Assembly (NCBI RefSeq): GCF_947623445.1
Contig: NC_135244.1
Span: forward strand, 21,638,860 to 21,702,859
Source of the DNA: Clavelina lepadiformis
Lineage: Eukaryota; Chordata; Ascidiacea; Aplousobranchia; Clavelinidae
DNA length: 64,000 nucleotides
Reading direction: 5' to 3'
The notes under the pieces were generated by a model, which did not search any database, was not told where the DNA came from, and was given only the letters and a program-made list of their open reading frames with translations. Below are positions 1 to 14,661 of this stretch, one piece after another (position 1 is the stretch's first letter; each line of letters opens with the position of its first letter). The position numbers and the translations under genes were made by a program.

Positions 1-63
1 ATTAAAACTTTTGAAAGTTATATGAAGAAATGTTTTTGGTCTACTATAATTGCAAATATATGC

Positions 64-1232
64 TTATGCTATACTCTGTCTCATAACTGGACGTTTTTCT
101 GGATTGAAATCGTAGCATTTTTCCATCCACATTTTCAAATCCTTAAAGATCTCCAAGTTTATTTCGTTTTCTCTTTGCTTCAGCACTAAGTCAATTTCGT
201 CCACTTTTCTCAGGTTAGGTTTTTGTCCCCGAGATTTAATGAGCTCAACAATGGCTGCGGATGGATTGCCACCAAATCCATTAGTTCTTGTAATGATATT
301 AAACAAAACGATTCCAAAGCTGTGAAAATAATAGAAAGCATAAAAAACTACAAAATCCCACCCATAACGCTTTACTTTCAACCTAAAGTTGTGATTGTGG
401 AACGGGTATATAGATATCATATAATCGTGATAAACTTAAGATGAACTGTAACAAACCTGTACACATCAGATGAAGGATCTCTTTTAGCGTTTGGATTCTT
501 CAAAACTTCAGGTGCTGAATATAACTCTGTATGCTGTGTCGTGTGTGAGAGGAACAAAGAATCGGTTGTCGCGTTGTGCTTTTGAAAGACGTGAGTGGAG
601 CCAAAGTCGACTATTTTTATATCCAGTTTCTCTGACAGAAGAATGTTCTGCGGTTTCAAGTCGCTGTGGATGTAAGCTCTCTTTGGATCGTGGTCGTGCA
701 AATAAAAGAGACCGTCAGCTATTTCACAGGAAAATTTAAGTCGGGGTAGCCAAGGTATGACTATCCTAGTGTCGGCCAACAAGTTGTCCAAAGTGCCAGC
801 ACTTGGATATTCCAGGATAATTCCGTGGCAATGATCCCATTGAGTAAAGCCGATATAACTCACGATGTTTGGATGATTCAGTCGCTTTAATACCTCTGTT
901 TCCCTTTGAACGCTATGAACAAATGAGATTAACAGTTTTTTGTTACACAACATATAGCTTAACGCTTGTAACAGAATTCCTTTCAAGTATTTACTTTTAG
1001 TTTTATACTATAGTCTTACTTATACTTTAGTACGCACTTACTTTTGCAAAGCTTTGTTCGGATCACCGTTGATTGGTTTAAGGTGATAACACTTTACAGC
1101 AACCGTTTTTCGAATCTTTTCAAAATAACATCTTCGTACTGTTGCGTAGCTCCCACAGCCTAAAAGATCGCTCGTGTCTGAACTTGTACGAAGAGTCGAT
1201 GCTTCGTGTAGACTTTCTTTTTTTGTTGACAT
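64..1232 (-). CDS. RIPK/TKL-like protein kinase, three exons, 300 aa
   Basis: Exons are 1232-1042, 912-457 and 319-64. All junctions are GT-AG and the phases close to 301 codons including the stop. The product is little more than a kinase domain. It has a glycine loop GCGSYATV at residues 25-32, VAVK lysine K47, an alpha-C glutamate near E70, a catalytic loop HSDLKPQN at 146-153 (D148), DFG at 166-168, APE at 197-199 and DVYSFGIVL in helix F. The ATP lysine, catalytic aspartate and DFG are all present, so it is probably active. Oddities are Ser for the HRD arginine and Ala for the third glycine of the loop. Overall it looks like the tyrosine-kinase-like group, close to RIPK or Mos. There is no signal peptide or membrane segment, so it should be cytosolic. 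Family placement is my inference. A last donor just before the stop could link it to a further exon beyond the window. Confidence 0.8.
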
Positions 1233-2871
1233 TTGAAATACTTATGCCTACTGTATGTTGTCTATGTTTGTACCTGTCATCTAAAAAGAGGGCGCTTATA
1301 TAATAGCACTTGTTAATGAATATGACCTGATATCAGCTCACTGCATACTCAAAAGAGGTTAAGAAATTTTAAACGATGCTTCTTATAGCTAAACCAGCAA
1401 TATAGTTAATCTATATCGGATCCACTGACTTAATTTTGCTTCTCTCTTTCTGGTCATGATTCTTCTTAGAAATTGAAAACTTATGCTTGTCTTTATAGTC
1501 CATCCAACAATATCAAAATCGTTATCTGCTTACAGATAAACGTAGCCAGTCAAATTATTCCAATCAATTATATCTCAGTAAAAAATGTCTTTTGCTTTCA
1601 GTCGTAGGCTACAAAGTGGGCCGAACAAGGCAAATGAACGTGTTTGCAACAACAATCTGGTGACAAATTTCGAGAAAAGTTTTAGCTAAAAATGTGACAA
1701 GATAAAACACCCGCTGCAACGCGAAACTTGAACCAGTGCATTTTTGTTCAAATTGTTTTCAGTTGACCTGTTATTGAATGAAGCTCGAGTGTGACGTCGT
1801 TAGATTTTCAATAAAGGGGTTTTCAGCGGTTTTTTACGTCAGAGTTAAATCTCGCATTCACTCGTCAATCGTCAAATTTAAACGAAGTCATATTTTTCTT
1901 GCTCTGTTGTTTCCGTTAATGCTGTTTATCACTAAACCAAATCTTTATCATCATCTACATAAATTTTGAACCACATCTCTCGTGCACACAAAATCAATTT
2001 CTTATATGTCTCTATTGGGCGATTTGTATCAAACCTGACACGTGACAAACATGTGAAACAATATCTTATTACGTAAAAGGAATACGACCTAACTTCGAAT
2101 AATAAAATCGGTAAAATTTTATTTTAATCCAAACGCTAATTTTTTCCGAAATGGTCCTTGTCAAGAATGATAGATTAAAAGTCCAAAAATTGATCAAAAA
2201 ACAAAACTTTTATTCCGTCGATGTTTGTACACAATGATAATGGGCGAATGACTGAAGATTCCACAAACAGTGAAATGTTAACATCATTGTCACAACAGCA
2301 AAATTAACAACAAAATTGGCTGATGTTTAGCATGCAAGAAGCTCATGCAATTTATTCAAATTCTCTTCGTTTGCAAAGATAAGACCAAAAAGAAAAACTA
2401 CCCTATAAAATATTTGTTAATCTTTTGTTTCGAATAAAATAGGAACTGGAAATAACGAAACCTTTTAAAAGAGGTGGAACAACAGACTGGGGAAATTTTG
2501 GTGATCTTAAAAGACAACAGCGTTGCACTTGTTTCGACTCATTCACCAACTACAAAGCTCTAAACAAAGGCAACAGACTGGAACTAACCGAATAACAGCG
2601 AGGTCTATCAGATTGCATCTTGATTTGCGTTACTTTGCAAAATAATTCAAACGCGCCCCAAAATGTAAACTCGTGAAACGTTTTTATCTCGCTTCAATTG
2701 AGTTAGACCGTTCACAGAACGTCAAATATAACAAAAGATAATTATTGAACGGAATATCAGTGAGATTGTTTATGGAAAGTTTCTAGGACAGGCTTAAATT
2801 AAGCTTTCTTTGATCAGCAGTTCAATTGGAAAAAAACTCTAGTCTAAAAAGTAGATGAACAGTCCTGAGTG
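1233..2871. other. Intergenic, divergent gene starts
   Basis: This lies between the divergent starts of the kinase (-) and the sushi gene (+). No ORF here resembles a protein I know. It should hold both promoters, but I see no clear TATA box. A short upstream ATG at 2855 opens a six-codon frame whose TGA overlaps the ATG of the sushi gene at 2872. Confidence 0.5.
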
Positions 2872-5090
2872 ATGGCTCAAACGAAACCAATAGAACTGAT
2901 TCAGCTACCACACAATAAGAAGCAACAGGAAGAAATTTACTCCCAGGGATACAGCGAAAATGTTGTGAAAACCCCAAGAACACAAACCGAATCACGCGAC
3001 GATGAACGACTTCTGTCAGGTTTTGCCCGTTCAGTTATGACGATAAATTGTCTTTATCTCGATCCAGTAACGTTCTTATCACAGAAAATGCATTCACTCG
3101 CCAACTTTGTATTTTTCTATAAATATTTATTATAAACATTTTTTTCTATAAATTTTTGTTAAAAGCTGACATCAAATTTTGTTTCAAAAGATTCCGACCA
3201 ATTTGAATGTTACGGTAAATTCATTAATACGATTCGATGCCCCAAAATCGGTTGTCGTGGAGTCAGTCTTGCATGGAAAGGTACGACGACACTGTCATAT
3301 TTGCTATAACTTAGGTTTAAATACTGTACACTTTATAGAGAGCCTAAACAAATAGTTTTATCAGGACCATTTCAGCATAAGAAAGGTCTAATAATAATTG
3401 GAGGGATTCTTCTCTTTTTGGCTGTTGCTTCTTTGTCAGCCGTTTTTACTTCAATTTCATATCGTAGCGGTCTAAAAGGCAAGTGACATTTATAGCAGAA
3501 AAACATCTTTCGATTATTGTATGCTGGTATTGAAAAATAAAAGCAATGATAGTTATTGTTATTGACCGTAACGTTTGTCCATGTAAGCTTCTGTTGTACA
3601 AAATCTATAACCATAAATTTGATTCTGTTATCTACAAATTCGTGTTTAGTCACAGAACGTTGCGCGATGTTAAATTTAACCGATGGACTCAATGTGCAAT
3701 GCACGAACGCCAACAAGATGGAATCAGTTTGCTACTTTGCATGCACAAACGGCAAAAAACTTTCTGTAAGTGCGTGGTTTGCTGCTGAATCAAATCCATT
3801 CAACATAAATAATGAAGCCATTTAAACCTTGTTGTTAAAGCAAAGACAAGTATTAAATAACAACTGGTCTACGTTAACAGGGTGGTGCTCACTCGGTGTG
3901 CAACCATTCTAACCTTTGATCGTCGGAAATTCCTTATTGTACGATAAGAGGTAAGATACATGAAAGGTAGAAAGAGAATAAGTAAGATCTAAAAAGTTTC
4001 AAAACTATGGTATCAATTAATCGATTAATCAATAAATATTAAACAATTAATCGAAGAAGTGACCAGCCGAATGCTGTTCCATATAATGTAGTAATTAAAA
4101 TTGTCAGCCAAAATACGACAAAATCTTTCAAATTTCACGGAAACGTTTTGAAACAAGAAAGGTTTCATACAGAAATAACATAAACAAACCGTAAAAAAGT
4201 TCCAGTTTTCAGCATGATTAGTAACAATATTCTCACTGTAGATTGCCCGTCATTGTTTTTGCCAGATGACATGGAAATAAAATGCAGCAACGACAACAAA
4301 GTAGGATCAACTTGCACTTTTGCGTGCACTGGAGACAAAATAATTGAAGTTAGTTTGACAAAATATTGCCTCACATCTTGCTGAAGATTAAGACCTTTCT
4401 GTTATAGCAAATCATCGCAAATCGAAAAGATGGAAATAAAAACCTTTGTAATATAACTTTTGTTAACAAACTTTAAATAAGTTTTTATTTCACAGGGAAA
4501 AAGTTACACTTCATGCAATGAATCATATCATTGGACATGTACACCTCCACGCTGTACGCTTAGAATATGATTAAAAATTGTATAAATGCAAGAAATATGT
4601 AACAATATCTAAAGCACTTAAGTAATGTTTGCAACATATTTAACCATAGATTTATATTTCTTGACTTTTTATTTATCAGGTTGCATATCATGGAAATCTT
4701 TAATGGATGACCTAAGCGTAATTCCTTTCACTACGTTAAAGGCGAGTCAAAGTTAATGTGAATTGCACGGTACTTCAGTATAAACTAACAAAGCTCACGC
4801 TAAAAAAACGCGTTTTTTGTCACATGCAGGTGGATTACGCCGAAGCGCATATCAATTGCAATACAAAGTTTATTTTCAACAACTTCGAAATTAGATACGA
4901 ATGCACCTGTAAAGATGCTTTAATAGATCATTCTCAAACATGTCGTTACTGGAAATCCCCGCTAGGCTCTTGCAAGCACGCGCTCAGTTTCCTGGTGCGA
5001 AATATGAACAAGATTGATCCTGATAGGTTCCCAATGCCTTGCGACCCAGAGAACATGGACAAGCGATGCGACAGACCTCTTGTTAAGTAA
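2872..5090 (+). CDS. Type II membrane protein with two sushi (CCP) domains and cysteine-rich tail; in-frame TGA
   Basis: Exons are 2872-3019, 3191-3280, 3365-3478 (GC donor), 3656-3765, 3881-3950, 4242-4348 and 4496-4570 (stop). A longer form could leave exon 7 at 4553 and continue with 4680-4741 and 4830-5090. All phases close (714 or 1020 nt). There is no signal peptide. After about 86 cytoplasmic residues ending in HKK comes a hydrophobic helix at about 87-110, so the C-terminus should be outside the cell. Exons 4-5 and 6-7 each spell a sushi domain, with Cys, G/S-x-C-x-F-x-C and a closing P-x-C pattern. The tail exon contains TCRYWKSPLGSC, loosely like an ShK-type cysteine module. In sushi 1 the conserved Trp codon position reads TGA (3917-3919). 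Exon 5 cannot be skipped without a frameshift. The gene is therefore a null allele, a pseudogene or a sequence error. ATTAAA lies at the 4570 stop. The specific ligand is unknown. Confidence 0.62.
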
Positions 5091-7003
5091 CTTTGCGAAC
5101 ATTTTACAAATCTTTCCTTTCATTGTCTCCGTATCCAGCGTTTTGTCATTGAATGGAACTCTTGCATGAAATGAACATGATTTGGATGACAATTGCGTGA
5201 ACGTTGCTGATTTTTTGTTTGTTACTTAGTTTAATAATTAGTTGACGAAAGTTTGTAATTATAACGGTGGAACATCTTATTACAGTTTAGCGTCCACAAC
5301 GAACGTTTATAAGCGATATAGTGGAATGCTGATATCTATTTATTGGTGATGTAATAAAACAGAAATCATAATTTTCATCAACAATTGCTGCTCATTCGCG
5401 ACATATCTGTTATGGCGTCTGCAGGCAATAAAGTCCAATTCCAAACGAATTTTTGAAATAGCCTAGGCCTACTTGGTTGCTATTTTGTTGGTCACTCACA
5501 GTATACCAATGACGCCTACTGACGACACAATTTTGCAGCCTGAAATAATTCTAGTAGACTAATGATGCCAAGTGGGATCTCTAAGTTTTTATAACCAAGG
5601 CGTTATATAACGGAATTTTTTTCACCACACAAACCATTTGGTCCCCAACGGTTAACCAAAATTATACGTCATGATTATGTACAATTAACGAAATTTCCCG
5701 AGACGCTTCAAGCGTACTCGGGATTTTTGTTTTTTCCGACAGTGACTGAGACCTTATCTTCGATTTCGAGCTTTGAATTAGACCTGTCAACGTGTTCTGG
5801 TATTTTAAATAACATGCAAATGCGGCCAATGCCCACTTTTTGTGAAGTTTAATTATTGCCAATTTCTTTTCATCGTTGCTTTTTGGAGGAATGAGGAGCT
5901 GTGGTAAAAAGCGCTGGGACGTTTTTTTCGGATGAGTTTGATTCAAAAATGTTCGAGGTCAACGACATCTTTTCTTCACTTGTTTTCAAAATCACTTTTC
6001 GGTGTTTGACTTTTAACTTTCAAGAAGAAGAGCAAAAAATTAATGGCGCCGCATGGGAGGCTTTAACGTGCGTAGAACATCAAACCTCAAAATTACTGAA
6101 TATTAGAAAACACAGTGTTTTAATAAAGCCAATTGGGATGTCTAATTTTAATAGTAGAGGCACTAAATTTTATGAAAAAGACACCACATAACTGATTTTT
6201 TGTCAAAGTAATGCTCATTATATCAGAACATCAAACCTGAGCATGATGAGCGACCTTTGATATCACAGTTTTGCTTCAGCTTTCTCTGGGTACAAGTCAA
6301 CTTCTGTACATCGACGTCCGTTTTGCTGTTTTGCAATCAGTTGATCAGAGCCATCACCAAATAAAAAACGTCTTGCCTCTGAGATGACAACAATCGATTA
6401 TTATAGAATAGATGGAGAAAGAGACAAAAAAGATTTATTTTCATTATTCCAGACAGTTATGTTGTGTTATGTACTTTTGATTTACTTTAGAATTCCTAGT
6501 GCATAGCTCTGTACCAAGGTGTTTCACTTCCGGGCGAAACGTGAATGTGGACTGTGTAACTGCGTTTGAAACAGTATTAATGTACGCTACAAAACATTGT
6601 ATTTTACACAATTTTTAAAGATTTTGACATGTTCTTGGCTACATGCATTTTTGTTATAAACAATGATAACAGCGGATTGTACTCAAACTATATCGTAAAA
6701 TGTTTGTTGATATCGGTGTTATAAGATGTTTATAATTAAGTATTTCTTGTATTCGGGAAAGCTACCCAATAAAAATTGCGGCAAAGTCCAAACTTGTAAA
6801 ATTTTAATTTCATTATTAGGCTAAACTCGGGCTTTTAGGCTACAGTTTGAATGAGTAGCTGTCTTACTGAGGGAAGTTGCATTATATTTATAGGCTATTG
6901 CTTATGAACAATGTTTGTAGTGTAGGCTAGGTTGTCTCCAAGAATTCAGGTTTAAATGTTTCACTTTTCAATAGGCTAAGTCACAACCTTTATCTATTTT
7001 ATA
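5091..7003. other. Intergenic, no recognised gene
   Basis: There are open frames of about 95 codons on both strands (5662-5946 on -, 5901-6191 on +), but they overlap each other and show no family signature. A sequence AATAAA at about 6769 could be a poly(A) signal. The Zwilch promoter should lie near 7003, but I see no clear element. Confidence 0.4.
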
Positions 7004-10000
7004 ATGGACGCCTTTTTTTCTGCATTGAACGCTTTTAATCGTGACGGTGTGGCAAACTGGAATGGATGTACTTTGGCAAATAAAATCCCAAATTTAGATA
7101 CCAGCCAGACTGGATTGGATCTTTTTGAGCGTGTTTATACGAATATATCTGGCAAAAATAATTGCAAAGTGAAGGCATTCATGTTTGTAAAAAACGACCG
7201 GATTACAAACAACTGTGGTAATGATAACGGCTTGAGCGAAGAAAATTATTACGGAAATCCATTGATCTATGACAACAATTCATCGTCTGAAGATGTCATC
7301 CTTGATAATAGTAAAACCGTTGGACAGACTGTTCTTGAACCTCAACATCTTGTTGAATTTCAAATGGGCCAGAGGTTTTTCTCTTATTTTGCCATTTCCT
7401 TTAAAAAGAACATCGAACAGTGCCAAGCATTACTGCCACTTTTTATATTTTGCGACGGGCACAAAAACAACAACAATATATACGGGCTTCTAGTGCATTG
7501 TCAATATGACACAGCAGTTAAGATCGCCACAGAAAATTTTCTCATTGTGGAAACGATTACCTGTAAAGGCCCTTTCCCATCGCAAATGTGGGAGAAAAAA
7601 AAAGTTGAATTTTTGACAAACCCAATCCTATATCAGCCACACATGCTGGGAGCACGTGGCGAACTGCCAGAGTCGTCTTCCTCTGTATTTCAGTCATTCT
7701 CTCACTTTCAGTTATTTGGCGCCAGCAGCTCTATCTTGAAATCACTTGAAATGGGTCTTGACATGTCATCAATCACTGCCGATGTAACTTGCAAGAAGGT
7801 ACGAAGGAATATTTGAATTCCTGTGATTCACAGCATGCTGCGATGTTTTATTGTTGTCTTCTGTTGTGACTTGTGTTAAGTATTTTTCCTTGGTAACGAA
7901 ATGTTTCTGTAGTTGATCATGTGGAATATTATTTAGCGTAATAGTGTGAGGGGACAAGTCACTGTCATGTTATTATTCAGCTTTAGAATGTTTTTATTTG
8001 TGAAAACGAAAAAATGTAAGACTGTGGTTGTGAATATTTTAAAGCTTTGTTCTCTGGTGCAGGAGAGATCTTAAGTGTTTTTATTGTAATTACTTTAATA
8101 TACATTCTAGGTGAGAGATGTTTTTGAAGTACTCCCCCAGTACATATCTTCAGTGAATGTCAATATATGTCCCGTACCAGGCGATATTAGAAGCCCAGCA
8201 TATTCCTTGTATAAAGATGTTCAAGTGTTAGAAGGTAAAATATATTTTCATTGCAGACAAGTATGTCTTGGTTACTACTTGGACTTGTATAAGCCTCGAC
8301 ATGTCACATGTTAGTCCACATTTAACAATATTTTCTAACATCATATTTTTATCACTTACTGCATATCACACAAACACAATTATTAACCAACAAGGTAATT
8401 GGTAACCCCTGATTTATACAACACCATGCATCGACAGTAATAAATATTATGATACCGTAGTAGAGCTAATTGATATGAATTGTTGGTAAAGGTCATCATT
8501 TTAGCAAAGTAATTCAATGGGATTCTACCACTTGGAGGAGACAAAGCTTTTATTGTATTTATTCACGTTATTTTCTTTCAACTTGAATGATCTATCAACT
8601 TGCAGGTCTACTCAGTGTTTTCGGTCCAAGTCAGGAAGTGAAGTGGGCACCGGAAGAAGCTTTTGATGAGGTTTGTTGCTTTTTTAGTTTTAACATTATT
8701 CAGCGCTGCGTGAGAGTATATTTTTTTACATTCTGCTACCTTTCTATTGTTACGATGGTGTGCTTTATAGAACGTAAATCATGCCCATTTCTTTAAAGAT
8801 AATTTTTTTTTGGAAACGAAAACATATATATACAACTTTGCTTGATATCTTTAATGTTGTTGAATTTTTCTTGGATATTGATTAGTGCTTGCTTATTGTT
8901 TCAGGTTGAAAAGAAACAGAAGAAGGACATTATTGCCAGGGTCAGAGAGGTCATAGCAGTGTTCAATGGTTATAAAACTTCACAAATGCTAGAGCAAAAG
9001 TTGGATGATCAAGAAAAAAGTATATAAAAAGTTCTTTCAAGCATTTGCATAGCTTTAACATTTATATGGTTATCGATTGTGAATATAAAACAATCTATTG
9101 CTCGTCTTAATTTTTTATTTGTGAAATTCTACTTGGTACAACCATCCGTTAAAGTAGATGTAGTGTAACAGTATGCAACCTTGCACTCTAGCATTATAAA
9201 GCCGTCGTGTTTTTACAACCCCTCCTTTGTAAGTTGTTACACCTTATGTTTCAGATGCATATGCTTCTTTGATACTTTTTGTTACTTTTTTGTTTGTAAA
9301 ATACTTAATTTAATTTTTTTTTCAACTTGGAAGATTCAGAAGAGGATGAAGACATTCTCTTCAATGTCATTGTCCCAAGAGAAGAGTTAGATTTTACAGA
9401 GTGCATGTGGGACGTCTTGAAGGTAGGTTTAGTTCTGCACAAAGCACCCCCGCACTGGTCCATGCACTTTTCATAATTGATTTGGTTTTGTTAGACCTCT
9501 CAAAGCTTGCAAGAACTGAAAAATGGTCTCAGTATCATAATAGACGAGATAGTGAGTGGTCGAACATCACATTTCTGGCTCCACGAGACAAGTGACTCCA
9601 TCATGGCTGACTTGATCAAGCAATCTTATGAGGTAGCTACTGATGTATTTGGTGTGAAGCTAAATACGGCAGAGAGAATATGTCCTTATTGCTAACAGAA
9701 TTGACCCAAAAGTTTGCGTAGACAAAGCTAAGCATGCATGTAGGTAGATATTCTTGTCAATTGTTTAGGTTGTTGGTGTAGTGGCCTGGTATCATTTGCT
9801 AGTGTAGCTGCAACTGCCACCCAGGCAACTCCTCACCTTTTTGTACAATGTTGTGCTGTAAAAAGTGGAATTTGTTTTAATTAATTCATAAACCTTATTA
9901 TTCAAGCCTGACAAAATAAAAGTGGTTTGTTTCCAAAATCCATTTATAGTTTTTCTTTGTGCCACTTATCAGCGTGCTTTCTTCCTATTGTCAGCTGTTT

Positions 10001-10922
10001 AGTGATGGCAACCAACTAGTTGCTTATTGGCATGTGGTTTATAACTCCTTGTGACCTAGGGAAAAGCAAAAGCTCCTTCGCTTAACGGAACACTGCCAAT
10101 TCAAGTTTTGGTCGAGATTGGACTCGATAAGTTGTCACATGACTACTTTAACTTCTTCGTCACGCATCGTCTATCCACCGCCGCCAAGTTGGCTAAAGTC
10201 TTTCCAGTACCATCCAGCAAAGACACTGATGCTGACAAGATGAGGCGGAAATTTTTAGGCATCCAAAATCTCCACCATGTTGTTGAGCTCACAGCTAACT
10301 GTCGTGTCTTTCTCCAACTTCCTTTGAACAAAATCAGCAAACTGATAAGGTGATTTTTGTCAGCGATTATGACTCTTGTTGATTATGATTATTGAGCGAT
10401 TATGAATATTGCCAGCCTTTTGTTGAAGTCTATTTCTTTAGGTCCACGCTCCAAACTTACCTTGATGAAGATGTTGATTTTAGCAAAGTCTTTTCTCTCG
10501 CGGTCTCCTACAATGAAATCACGGCTTACTTGTCCAACCTACAGCCCGTTACATGGAGGGTTACAGCTTCTGGTAGCAACGAATATGGCAAAGTAAATCT
10601 GACATCTTATAATAGATTGATAATAATGAAACGAATAATAATTTAATATAATTTGAAGAACAAACTGCTAGCATTGAAAATTTAATGCAGCTTCCCTTGT
10701 TAACTTTCCTGCATTTATTTGGCATAATTCATTTTAATGCGTTACAAATTATGTCTAATCCTGCAAGCTGTACCCGAATCAGTGATATCCACTTTATACT
10801 CGCTTCCTGTAGAACACTTGCAGCGCATTTTGGAGCAGGGATTTCCCCCTTTCCGATCTGATCTCACCACCATTGCTCGATTCGAGTATGACCGAGACCG
10901 AGACCGACCCAGAAGAAGTTGA
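7004..10922 (+). CDS. ZWILCH: Zwilch, RZZ complex kinetochore subunit, nine exons, 633 aa
   Basis: Exons are 7004-7798, 8111-8234, 8606-8670, 8905-9019, 9334-9422, 9495-9632, 10060-10349, 10442-10572 and 10768-10922. They total 1902 nt, or 633 codons plus stop; human Zwilch has about 590. The best match is exon 7, LNGTLPIQVLVEIGLDKL followed by IQNLHHVVEL, against SGTIPVQMLLEIGLDKL and VQKLHHILEI of the human protein as I recall it. SDSIMADLIKQSYE and the WRV motif also align. With ROD and ZW10, Zwilch forms the RZZ complex, which loads dynein/Spindly and Mad1-Mad2 on unattached kinetochores. The first exon is long and poorly conserved. At the last junction the strong donor GTAAAT (10593) gives the wrong phase, whereas GTAGCA (10573) fits. 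ATTAAA at 11081 may end the transcript. Confidence 0.9.
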
Positions 10923-11696
10923 AGAAAAACTGGAATATTATTTCTCTACGCTGAGTGAAAGCGTCCATCTCATATACTGATATTTGCTTACTACTAACTC
11001 GATACAACTCTGTACCAATTACATACGACAATCATCTCTAGGCATGTGAATGCACTGATATATATGTTTATGGTTTTTGTATTAAAATAGTTTTTGACTG
11101 TTGATAGACACTGACCTGTGCGAATGCGAGCCAATGTTGCATTCAGATATCTTCGGTAAACTTATGCGCTTGTGTTTCGATGGAAGCACTTACCTCTTAC
11201 ACCGGTAAAGTTACCAAGTAATTTCAGTGAATAGTGGTAACATTTTGTTTTCTTTTCTTTGGCGTTGCATTTTCTTACATAAATTGTCGTGTCTTTCTTT
11301 GGCATTTTCTTACATAGGGAGTCGGTAGTACTTGCTTTGGCGTTGCCAAAGTTTATTGGCGTGGGGCCACGGTGTTAGAGGGTTATTGCCAGAAAGTATA
11401 GGGCGAAATATGAATTATCTGAATCCAGATGCGTTAGATTGCTTTGTTGGACAATTCGACACGACAGCGATTGAACACAAACATTCAATGCACAGACAAC
11501 CACGCTAGATTTACTTTCATTCATGTGTAAGCATTAACATGCTTTAAACTATCTTACGTTTGAATATGCGGCTGAAAGTCCAACGTGCGGTTGCTGTAAC
11601 TCGTTTGTCAAATTCCGGCTTGTTGATCCATCTGGAACTAAAAATGACTGATAATTCAAAAGAATGCTGTAAATTTACTGAAACATAAGATTTTAT
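10923..11696. other. Convergent 3' region of Zwilch and the integrin-like gene
   Basis: This holds the 3' UTR of Zwilch, ending near ATTAAA at 11081, and a spacer before the 3' end of the minus-strand integrin-like gene. I looked on the minus strand for further integrin exons (FG-GAP repeats, calf or transmembrane segments) and saw none. Confidence 0.5.
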
Positions 11697-11697
11697 T
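11692..11697 (-). terminator. AATAAA poly(A) signal overlapping the stop codon
   Basis: On the minus strand the stop TGA (11699-11697) and AATAAA (11697-11692) share one A. The 3' UTR would be only about 15-30 bases. This supports a genuine transcript end directly after the I domain. Confidence 0.7.
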
Positions 11698-14661
11698 CAC
11701 AAACATTTCATCACTTCAGTCATTGACTCTTGCAAGGCGGTCACTGTAGTCACCAACTGGTCAAAGTTCTCTAAACCGAAGGTGTTTTCGTTCTCGTCCA
11801 TATCCGCATGATTCCCGGTGATGACCTGTACGACATACTTAGAGGTCATTAACTTAGGCCTACTTTCATATTTTAAAAAATCGGTAGGCCTAGCCAATAA
11901 AAAGATCATGACCGCAAGAATTATGACAATAGAAGTAGGACTACAAAACATAAGATAGTAGGCTAATAATAGCCTGCTGTGCACAAAATAATTATACCCT
12001 GACGACCAAAAATATAAGTTATAACTTCAATTTAATCTATAGATAGAGTGAGGAGACCGTTAGCCTCCGTAACATCAGAATGAAGAGCTCGAAACAGACT
12101 TTGCCAAACAGCAAGATTACTTTGCTAAAAATGTATTCTGTCACCTTGAGTTCCTCCTCAGCGAAAGAAGCGACTCCGACCGCGAAAATGATGATTCCGA
12201 ATGACCTGGCGTAGTGTGCAGAAGCCTCCAAGTAATCCACATCGTCAGATCTGTATACAGCCTACGTATACTGTACATATGCCTTTTTATGTTAAATTTA
12301 TTTAAAGAAAACTTATTTTCAAAATTAAAATAACAGGCCAGGTTTCTCTCATGCGTTATTTATGTGAAAATACTAAACTTCTTACCGTCCGTCTGTGAGC
12401 AAAATCATGATTTTTGTTGTTGTCGGATCGTGGAACCGCGATGAATTCTTAAAATCCTCCACAGTTTTATTGATAGCATGAGCAGTGTAAGTTGTGTACC
12501 CGTGACGTTGTATTTGGTGGACTGCCGCCTGCAGATACAGTGGGTAAAGGTCACTCAGGGTCTGTCGACTTGCTTTACCGTATGTGGGATATAAGCCTAC
12601 TTTTAAAATGTTCCAGCTTTCAAAAAATACAACATTCAAAACTTGTAAGTTAGTTTTTTTTTAAATATTATGACTTTTATGTTCAGCGTAACTGCCTGTT
12701 ACTCCACCGCCCAAAGACAAAAATTTAAATCTTCTGATATAGCCTACAGAGGTGCTGATGAACATTTAGCCTACTGAATATTTCCTAAGATATAAGCCTA
12801 AGTCTATGACCTAACCATACCGTGAAATTGCTAAAATCTTTTATTTTTCCGATAGCGATTTCTGTCTCCAAGAATTGTGATGCTTCCACTGGGCTGCAAC
12901 ACAGAAAGACATAATCGTAGGTGGGTAGTACCGAATTACTGTACCGCAGTACTTTTTCAGTACCGATACCATCGGTACTTTTGAAAAAAAGTACCAAATC
13001 TCTGTACCGAATTACTTTTTTCAAGAAATTTTTGTCGGTCCCAGTACTCGGTATTTTTTACGTGATAATTTCATAAATTTAACAAGTATGTTTCAAAACT
13101 ACATGTTAATTAATCCTTAATGCTAATTTTAATATCTGTTGATCTTTTTTAAGCTAGAAATGTCAAGTAAAATTGCAAGCGATTAACGTTATATATGCCT
13201 ATGTTTTGTCACATAGGCCATACCTTTACCGGGGGCATACTAGCGAGTAGCGGCAAGCATTGCATTTGCAACAGCATCTTTTATACAAAACGTACCGGTA
13301 CCGAGTACCGACAAAGTACCGAAATACGTTTTTAAAATAATACCGGAACCGTCGGTACATTTTTTGCCAAGTACCGGTACCGACGGTACTTTCAAAGTAC
13401 CGACTGCCCACCTCTGGACATAATAGGCCAATAGCTATTACAACAATTACACACAAACACACAATGCTCATTTCCTTTTCAGAATAAACCCTAACTTACT
13501 CATCAATATCCATGTAATAATGTGAATACTGAATCACGCCAATGTTTGTTGTGCCACTGACGTCAAAACGAGATGAAACAGCGATCAACCATTCGAGAAC
13601 TTTCTGAAAGTCGTCTTTTGACACGCTTGCTGAACCGTCCAGTAGAAAAACCAAGTCTAGCTTGGTATCACATTCTGTTTATAAGTATTATTTGTAACCA
13701 TTTTATCTAATAGGGTCTAGAAAAGTTTTATCAAAATATATGTTTTATTCCGCTAAGCTTCTAGTTGTAGAATTTCATGTGAAAATCATGTTGGTCAAAA
13801 ATTTCATAAAGTCTCACTGACTTAAGTTGAAATTTAATTTCATATTTCCTTATACCTGGATCCATTTTAGAGGAAATGCTTCTTGGTGTTGCTCCCCAAT
13901 TACTTCCAAAATCCGGAGATTTATAACAAGCTCCATGTGTGAAGAAACTGTCGGAGCATCTTCGGGCACGAAACGGAGCACAAGCCTAAAAGTTGATGGA
14001 TGTAAATTGCGGGCATACGTAATGCATGCGTTCTCCGAAGGATATCATTTTATGACAATGCCGGTAAGTCCAGCTCACCGTCAGAATTTTGCTACTCCTT
14101 GGGCTTGCTAAAGTCAAACCAAACCCATCTCTTTCTGTTATTACATCCGGGTTCGCGGATCTATTTGGCCTTTCAGGCATCACCGAAGTGCAGCTTTGAT
14201 AGGGAGATAACAATTTTACGGAACACGAGAATACATCTCCTGAACTAAGTCTCTCTGGCAATGGAAAATTTGAGGATATGGGTTGGTTTTTCCCTGTCTG
14301 CTGCCGCTGGATGGCATATGGCGCGCCTAGGATTAACCTCAAGAGAAAGAACAAGATTATTTCGAGCTTATACCTAAGTTCTGTTTCAAAAAGTGCAGCG
14401 GGACAAAGTAAGCTACACAAAGCTGTTCTTACAACTCGCTCTAGAACTATAGCCTACCTTATACAGTTATGCTTACTTGATGTCATCTGACCCTGGCGCC
14501 AGCGGTTGAGCAACTGAGAACTGGTATCCGAAAAAGCTATTCGGCGTGGAAGGAGAATGCGCAAAACATTTGGTACCACCTTCAATATTGAAGGCCAAGC
14601 TCGTGTTCACCAACAGAAAAGCCATGCATGTCAATGTTGTAATAATTGGCTCGGTTTGCAT
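11697..14661 (-). CDS. Short secreted integrin-alpha-like protein ending after its I (VWA) domain, 399 aa
   Basis: Exons are 14661-14477, 14337-14079, 13985-13856, 13674-13500, 12893-12821, 12528-12386, 12250-12145 and 11825-11697. They are all GT-AG and total exactly 400 codons with the stop. A signal peptide covers about 1-24. Next comes the integrin alpha N-terminus (FNIEGG, then FGYQFSV), an FG-GAP blade with LILGAPYA and GDVFSC, and a blade 2 stretch with ACAPF and HGACYKSPDFGSNWG. A complete alpha-I domain follows, with the MIDAS motif DGSAS at 204-208, Thr287 in HGYTTYTAHAI, and Asp320 in ILLTDG. A normal alpha chain continues with blades 3-7, the leg and a transmembrane helix (over 1000 aa). 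This one stops straight after the I domain, and its TGA shares a base with AATAAA. It could be a soluble ligand-binding decoy or a truncated duplicate; the clean frame favours expression. Confidence 0.82.
12916..13416. mobile_element. Non-autonomous hAT-like element rich in GTACCG repeats
   Basis: The 501-bp insert lies in the intron between I-domain exons 4 and 5 of the integrin-like gene. It is flanked by perfect 8-bp duplications GACATAAT (12908-12915 and 13417-13424). Its ends are imperfect inverted repeats, CGTAGGTGGGTAGT on the left and CAGAGGTGGGCAGT (reverse complement) on the right, the CAG-GGTGGG style of hAT elements. The sub-terminal regions are packed with GTACCG/CGGTAC motifs in both orientations and could fold. 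There is no transposase. The left end lies only 15 bp from the splice acceptor at 12894. Confidence 0.88.

Follow-up and report, generated by a model that had tools for sequence, protein, structure and literature searches.

Alpha-I genes without a recognisable integrin propeller form a family in the ascidian Clavelina lepadiformis

The I domain arose within the integrins of tunicates and vertebrates, where it binds an acidic ligand residue via the metal of the MIDAS. A published survey reports 11 alpha chains in Ciona, 8 of which carry an I domain (PMC1145181). Another study (PMC12422189) describes an I/LEGT motif that follows helix 7, binds the beta MIDAS through its glutamate and was found in no other VWA proteins. 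In this work, an alpha-I gene was analysed on the minus strand of a 64,000-nucleotide stretch of the Clavelina lepadiformis genome (C5:21638860-21702859, referred to as the window). Judged from its sequence, the product of this gene is somewhat more likely than not to be a secreted, metal-dependent ligand binder which derives from an integrin and is no longer an integrin subunit.

Conceptual splicing of the window joined exons 1-8 in frame through GT/AG borders into 399 aa and a stop codon, as the initial annotation had proposed, and the five MIDAS residues listed there were each found at the given number (Table 1). The I domain matched the VWA family in Pfam (PF00092, E 2.7e-28). Among PDB sequences, the top whole-chain match was collagen VI alpha 3, with a score summed over many VWA domains, and the best integrin match was alpha-X (phmmer, E 2.6e-17), residues 72-341 of which are co-linear with query residues 133-422, a segment spanning blade 2, the I domain and exon 9 in that order. 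Based on this co-linearity and on an exon 9 phase identical to that of a full-length gene, the I domain is placed after blade 2, as in integrin alpha subunits. The beginning of the protein is signal-peptide-like as judged from hydropathy, and no TM-like segment occurs in residues 1-424, where the top 19-residue hydropathy beyond residue 30 is 1.57 and lies inside the I domain. The three cysteines of exon 3 were invariant in all eight aligned copies of the family. Judged by eye, intron 4 holds an element (12917-13416, minus strand) whose ends read CAGAGGTGGG...CCACCTA and which contains many copies of GGTACCG; it looks like a hAT-type miniature transposon.

Table 1 The alpha-I gene and neighbouring features in the window
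Feature	Position	Strand	Description
Exon 1	14477..14661	-	ATG, putative signal peptide (hydropathy maximum over residues 6-24), FNIEGG as N-terminus of the mature protein, first strand of the propeller; matches the first exon of the C2:24.375 Mb paralog
Exon 2	14079..14337	-	Blade 1 and beginning of blade 2
Exon 3	13856..13985	-	Piece of blade 2; Cys150, Cys158, Cys168
Exon 4	13500..13674	-	I domain begins; MIDAS DGSAS (D204, S206, S208)
Exon 5	12821..12893	-	I domain
Exon 6	12386..12528	-	I domain; MIDAS T287 and D320
Exon 7	12145..12250	-	I domain
Exon 8	11705..11825	-	I domain ends; MK-F at the position where 6 of 13 modelled copies carry the internal-ligand LEG motif
Stop codon of the initial annotation	11699-11697	-	Here placed in intron 8 (begins gtttgtga); possible alternative end with AATAAA
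Exon 9 (overlooked in the initial annotation)	11637-11558	-	FPDGSTSRNLTNELQQPHVGLSAAYSN (F split with exon 8), then donor gtaaga
Exon 10 (candidate last exon, low confidence)	11418-11383	-	IIHISPYTFWQ and stop; AATAAA at ~11357-11352; from acceptor-anchored ORF listing
Zwilch (RZZ kinetochore complex), C-terminal exons	10054..10980	+	PF09817, E 1e-9 at 10054-10341; converges on the alpha-I gene
Protein kinase exons	64-1241	-	Pfam Pkinase, 2.4e-29; near the left end of the window

The initial annotation had the reading frame stop exactly where the I domain ends. This part was not upheld, as the stop sits just beyond a phase-1 GT (11704-11703) with exon 9 behind it, and the C-terminus proposed there probably reads into intron 8. 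Exon 9 carries the frame on from exon 8 in phase, and its peptide corresponds to the strand following the I domain in alpha-X and also matches exon 9 of the nearest paralog (C2:24.375). A clear exon 9 was seen in six truncated genes (the window gene, C2:24.375, C2:24.385, C8:6.450, C8:6.469 and C8:14.824), and in each of them a phase-0 donor follows it, at a position varying within a few residues; this donor reads GTRAG in five of them and GTGCT in one, and the full-length alpha-I gene also has a phase-0 donor at the end of exon 9. Since this donor was kept in six truncated genes, at least one more exon probably follows, which would be short in the window gene.

No conserved exon 10 was found by tblastn of downstream ORFs among three truncated loci and the full-length locus, by acceptor-anchored peptides (47, 30 and 29 candidates after a strict acceptor filter), by acceptor-anchored ORF listings covering 0.8-1.6 kb, or in the closest pair, C8:6.450/6.469. 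The top score was under the best control in three of the four comparisons and one point over it in the fourth (35 vs 34). No homologue was found for the candidate exon 10 of the window. The sequence downstream of C8:6.469 shares a 28-nt DNA match with the window (E 0.002), in opposite orientation. Exon 9 itself was not found within the 0.3-1.1 kb examined past exon 8 in five modelled copies (C7:9.80, C8:4.249, C8:4.303, C2:24.174 and C2:26.248) and was doubtful in C3:1.338; the downstream sequence of most copies was limited in length, and that of C8:2.232 did not include the exon 9 region. The family may therefore have more than one type of 3' end. Downstream of exon 9 at C8:6.449 Mb, a second, altered exon-9-like stretch was observed (LLARIGFSSHSSTGKVSLFH vs LQLAQIGFSSHYSNKKVSLFH), which is perhaps an internal duplication.

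It had also been claimed that neither blades 3-7 nor a transmembrane leg is visible downstream of the I domain. For this part, 16 peptides (exon 9 to TM) of the alpha-I gene at C8:6.480 Mb were used as tblastn queries. The propeller peptides (exons 10-14) matched C8:13.54, 13.57 and 15.25 Mb (best E 1e-15) and gave nothing below E 0.1 across the window and 10 kb beyond its left end. The complete set of 16, leg and TM included, gave nothing below E 0.1 in the same range, where the leg/TM queries are insensitive: they mostly matched their own gene only, two of them also reaching C8:15.25 (E 1.7e-5 and 7e-6), and PF08441 likewise gave no match at any of the four alpha-I loci with a propeller. A genome-wide search with the FG-GAP profile (E<=10) returned 35 matches. 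Among them were the four loci taken here as alpha-I genes with a propeller, and none lay on the chromosome of the window. Pfam searches of the three minus-strand frames of positions 1-11556 found a kinase only, and no leg or TM. By tblastn, Pfam and FG-GAP searches, the window gene lacks a recognisable seven-bladed propeller with FG-GAP repeats; the claim was thus confirmed for the propeller and tested less stringently for the leg and TM.

The joined exons of the neighbouring Zwilch gene matched PF09817 at 9.5e-15 over 146 of 200 aa, a match that does not extend over the last exon, which was judged by eye to end at ~10922 or 10980. As Zwilch is convergent, only ~0.5 kb is left for the 3' end of the alpha-I gene unless the two genes overlap. 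A fusion of the alpha-I gene to the kinase was considered and rejected, because the kinase is 10 kb off and behind Zwilch, and no kinase was seen by eye among the downstream ORFs of the C2 paralog. On the plus strand at ~17.6-22.3 kb, the ORF list contained repeated cysteine-rich exons, which by eye look like P-type trefoil domains.

The C. lepadiformis genome (209 Mb, 95 contigs) was searched for I-domain exons by using the window protein and the C8:6.450 and C8:4.303 proteins as queries. Matches were grouped by hand, and a locus had to show the exon-4 piece together with one or more other exons of the I domain lying in the same orientation and no more than ~4 kb away. In this way, ~23 truncated cassettes including the window were counted by exon matches, among them C8:2.213 and C8:2.217, the further exons of which rest on matches of E 0.08-0.5; two doubtful extra loci (C3:5.216 and C1:24.205) were left outside this number. 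Thirteen of the 23 loci were modelled by a spliced-alignment script, several from exon 3 or 4 onward, with exon 1 wholly or partly missing in all models other than those of the window and C2:24.375, and ten are known by exon matches alone. The final models of the 13 copies contain no stops, partly by construction since the script penalises them.

The propeller and FG-GAP searches identified three propeller-bearing alpha-I genes (C8:6.48, 13.54 and 15.25 Mb). At a possible fourth (C8:13.57), the I domain is represented by a single weak match (E 0.69). Five alpha loci have a propeller and no I-domain match listed nearby. The C8:15.25 Mb gene carries the MIDAS DASVS and LES in place of LEG, and the C8:13.54 Mb gene carries DESGS and LEG. 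Two cassettes, C8:6.450 (on the opposite strand) and C8:6.469, lie <40 kb from the 6.480 propeller, and no propeller exon was found in the 7 kb downstream of C8:6.469; the other 21 have no FG-GAP match within 100 kb in the E<=10 listing. Dense clusters of alpha-I cassettes with mixed orientations were observed at C8:2.047-2.235 and 4.20-4.32 Mb. In the convergent pair C8:2.2128/2.2177 Mb, 2.9 kb separates the two weak exon-8 matches (E 0.43 and 0.49); no full-length-gene peptide was detected below E 0.03 in the 2 kb inside the pair, and at C8:2.2142-2.2162 Mb neither an I-domain exon (by eye) nor exon 9 (by HMM) was seen. A literature search whose coverage excluded most subscription journals yielded no paper on truncated alpha-I genes of ascidians.

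The window gene and C2:24.375 share 48% aa identity over 403 codons, with pS 0.75 and pN 0.33 (0.87 and 0.47 for the 26 codons of exon 9), and six other pairs gave pS 0.67-0.83 and pN 0.20-0.42. In all seven pairs, drawn from eight copies, pN was well under pS, the ratios being qualitative as dS is saturated in most pairs; the copies show signs of purifying selection. A complete five-residue MIDAS is present in 12 of the 13 modelled copies. Two of these residues are lost in the cassette at C2:24.174 Mb (EGSSA replaces DxSxS), and metal binding may not be needed in every relative. In an I-domain tree of the 13 truncated copies, three propeller-bearing alpha-I genes and three other VWA domains, the truncated copies formed one clade (bootstrap 68) neighbouring the C8:6.480 gene (57), and the window paired with C2:24.375 (100). 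A single truncation followed by duplication would be the simplest, weakly supported reading of this tree. Taken together, the ~23 cassettes, the purifying selection and the grouping in the tree show that the window gene belongs to a gene family and is not a lone fragment. The core of the first proposal, an alpha-I protein that lacks the remainder of the integrin, survives and is strengthened by the similar loci and the selection, and the gene is not a lone case.

At the internal-ligand position, six of the 13 modelled copies have LEG and one has IDG, the window gene has MK-F in place of the glutamate after helix 7, and five others have neither motif, two of these five being read beyond the model end. 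According to PMC12422189, the motif is in no other VWA proteins, so its presence in six cassettes supports an integrin ancestry. Its replacement points to a loss of beta-subunit coupling in the window copy and in roughly half of the related copies.

Among the other explanations of the locus, the one given most weight is that the product of the initial annotation is right after all, with exon 8 as the last exon, the transcript ended by the AATAAA and exon 9 a leftover. The exon-8 donor is weak: it scores 4.2 bits on a matrix of 81 donors from spliced-alignment models, some of them modelled wrongly, a value that 91 of the 364 GTs in 10-16 kb also reach, so the frame may instead end at 11697. The AATAAA does overlap the stop codon as first noted, and the copy at C7:9.80 Mb likewise has an early stop, an AATAAA at +22 and no exon 9 in the next 0.8 kb. 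However, an AATAAA lies within 31 nt at 3.3% of minus-strand positions, which makes the overlap weak evidence; the 8-mer gtttgtga is also found at the exon-8 end of C2:24.385, which retains exon 9; and exon 9 of the window is still recognisable and in frame, with a donor behind it, despite saturated dS. A 399-aa product with its poly(A) signal on the stop codon is therefore considered less likely than splicing into exon 9, and the explanation as a whole unlikely, if far from negligible. Somewhat less likely again is a full-length integrin or other membrane protein, in which a long intron would separate exon 9 from anchor exons that are far away or cannot be recognised. The conserved phase-0 donor calls for another exon, none was identified and the leg and TM searches were insensitive, so an unrecognised anchor-bearing exon may lie farther off; yet the convergent Zwilch gene is ~0.5 kb away, the chromosome has no FG-GAP match, and the 2 kb examined inside the convergent C8:2.2128/2.2177 pair gave no peptide of the full-length gene below E 0.03.

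We regard a functionless pseudogene or a recent partial duplication as improbable. Two thirds of the parent gene have left no trace, the exon-8 donor is weak and one related copy has a broken MIDAS, but the excess of pS over pN in every pair, the intact MIDAS in nearly all modelled copies and, to the extent that the script allows, the open frames of the 13 models argue against it. That downstream exons were dropped by an assembly error is very improbable: only one assembly was available, but cassettes without a nearby propeller recur at many loci on several chromosomes.

The preferred reading is thus a secreted protein of ~425-440 aa, predicted to consist of a signal peptide, a cysteine-bearing blade 1-2 remnant, a whole alpha-I (VWA) domain and the post-I strand, and to be terminated by a short last exon that is not conserved or, as the less likely option, by read-through at 11697. 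Against this reading, no case is known of two propeller blades folding by themselves. The gene would descend from an alpha-I integrin of ascidians in which blades 3-7, the leg and the membrane span were lost, probably once, and which was afterwards duplicated into ~23 loci. An acidic ligand residue would most likely be bound through the metal at the I-domain MIDAS, in solution or in the matrix. The propeller/beta-I interface could not form in such a protein, and since the glutamate offered to the beta MIDAS is lost in the window copy, integrin-type signalling is not expected. One may guess at a soluble recognition molecule, a decoy or an opsonin of the blood or tunic. A bolder and, in our view, doubtful proposal is that the ~23 proteins form a diversified soluble recognition repertoire, in which the LEG-bearing half may dock in trans on the beta MIDAS and trigger or block integrins, and the LEG-less copies would only bind ligand. 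Independently of this proposal, a large set of I-domain genes detached from the receptor would represent the reverse of I-domain capture: a module of integrins that went back to being secreted and was multiplied, perhaps in the service of immunity or the tunic matrix. It would also supply naturally free I domains, some with the internal-ligand glutamate and some lacking it, in which the role of this residue would be testable outside a receptor.

Compared with known systems, the window gene resembles the ascidian alpha-I chains (Ciona alpha1-8 and Halocynthia roretzi alpha1), which PMC1145181 describes as an ascidian-specific clade with a MIDAS and an I domain between blades 2 and 3. However, according to that survey the eight alpha-I chains of Ciona resemble vertebrate chains in their TM and intracellular features, and no such feature was found for the window gene. 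The full-length C. lepadiformis gene at C8:6.478-6.490 Mb has the same I-domain exons and an exon 9 with a phase-0 donor, but runs on into propeller, leg and TM exons. The leukocyte alpha-I integrins, human alpha-X/alpha-M, are similar in the co-linear segment shared with alpha-X, whereas in the window gene the rest of the propeller, the leg and the TM were not found and the internal-ligand Glu is replaced. With secreted VWA proteins such as collagen VI, von Willebrand factor and proximal thread matrix protein, it would share an extracellular VWA domain. To our knowledge, these proteins have no integrin-type blade 1-2 exons, whereas the window gene does have them, and almost half of the modelled cassettes carry LEG.
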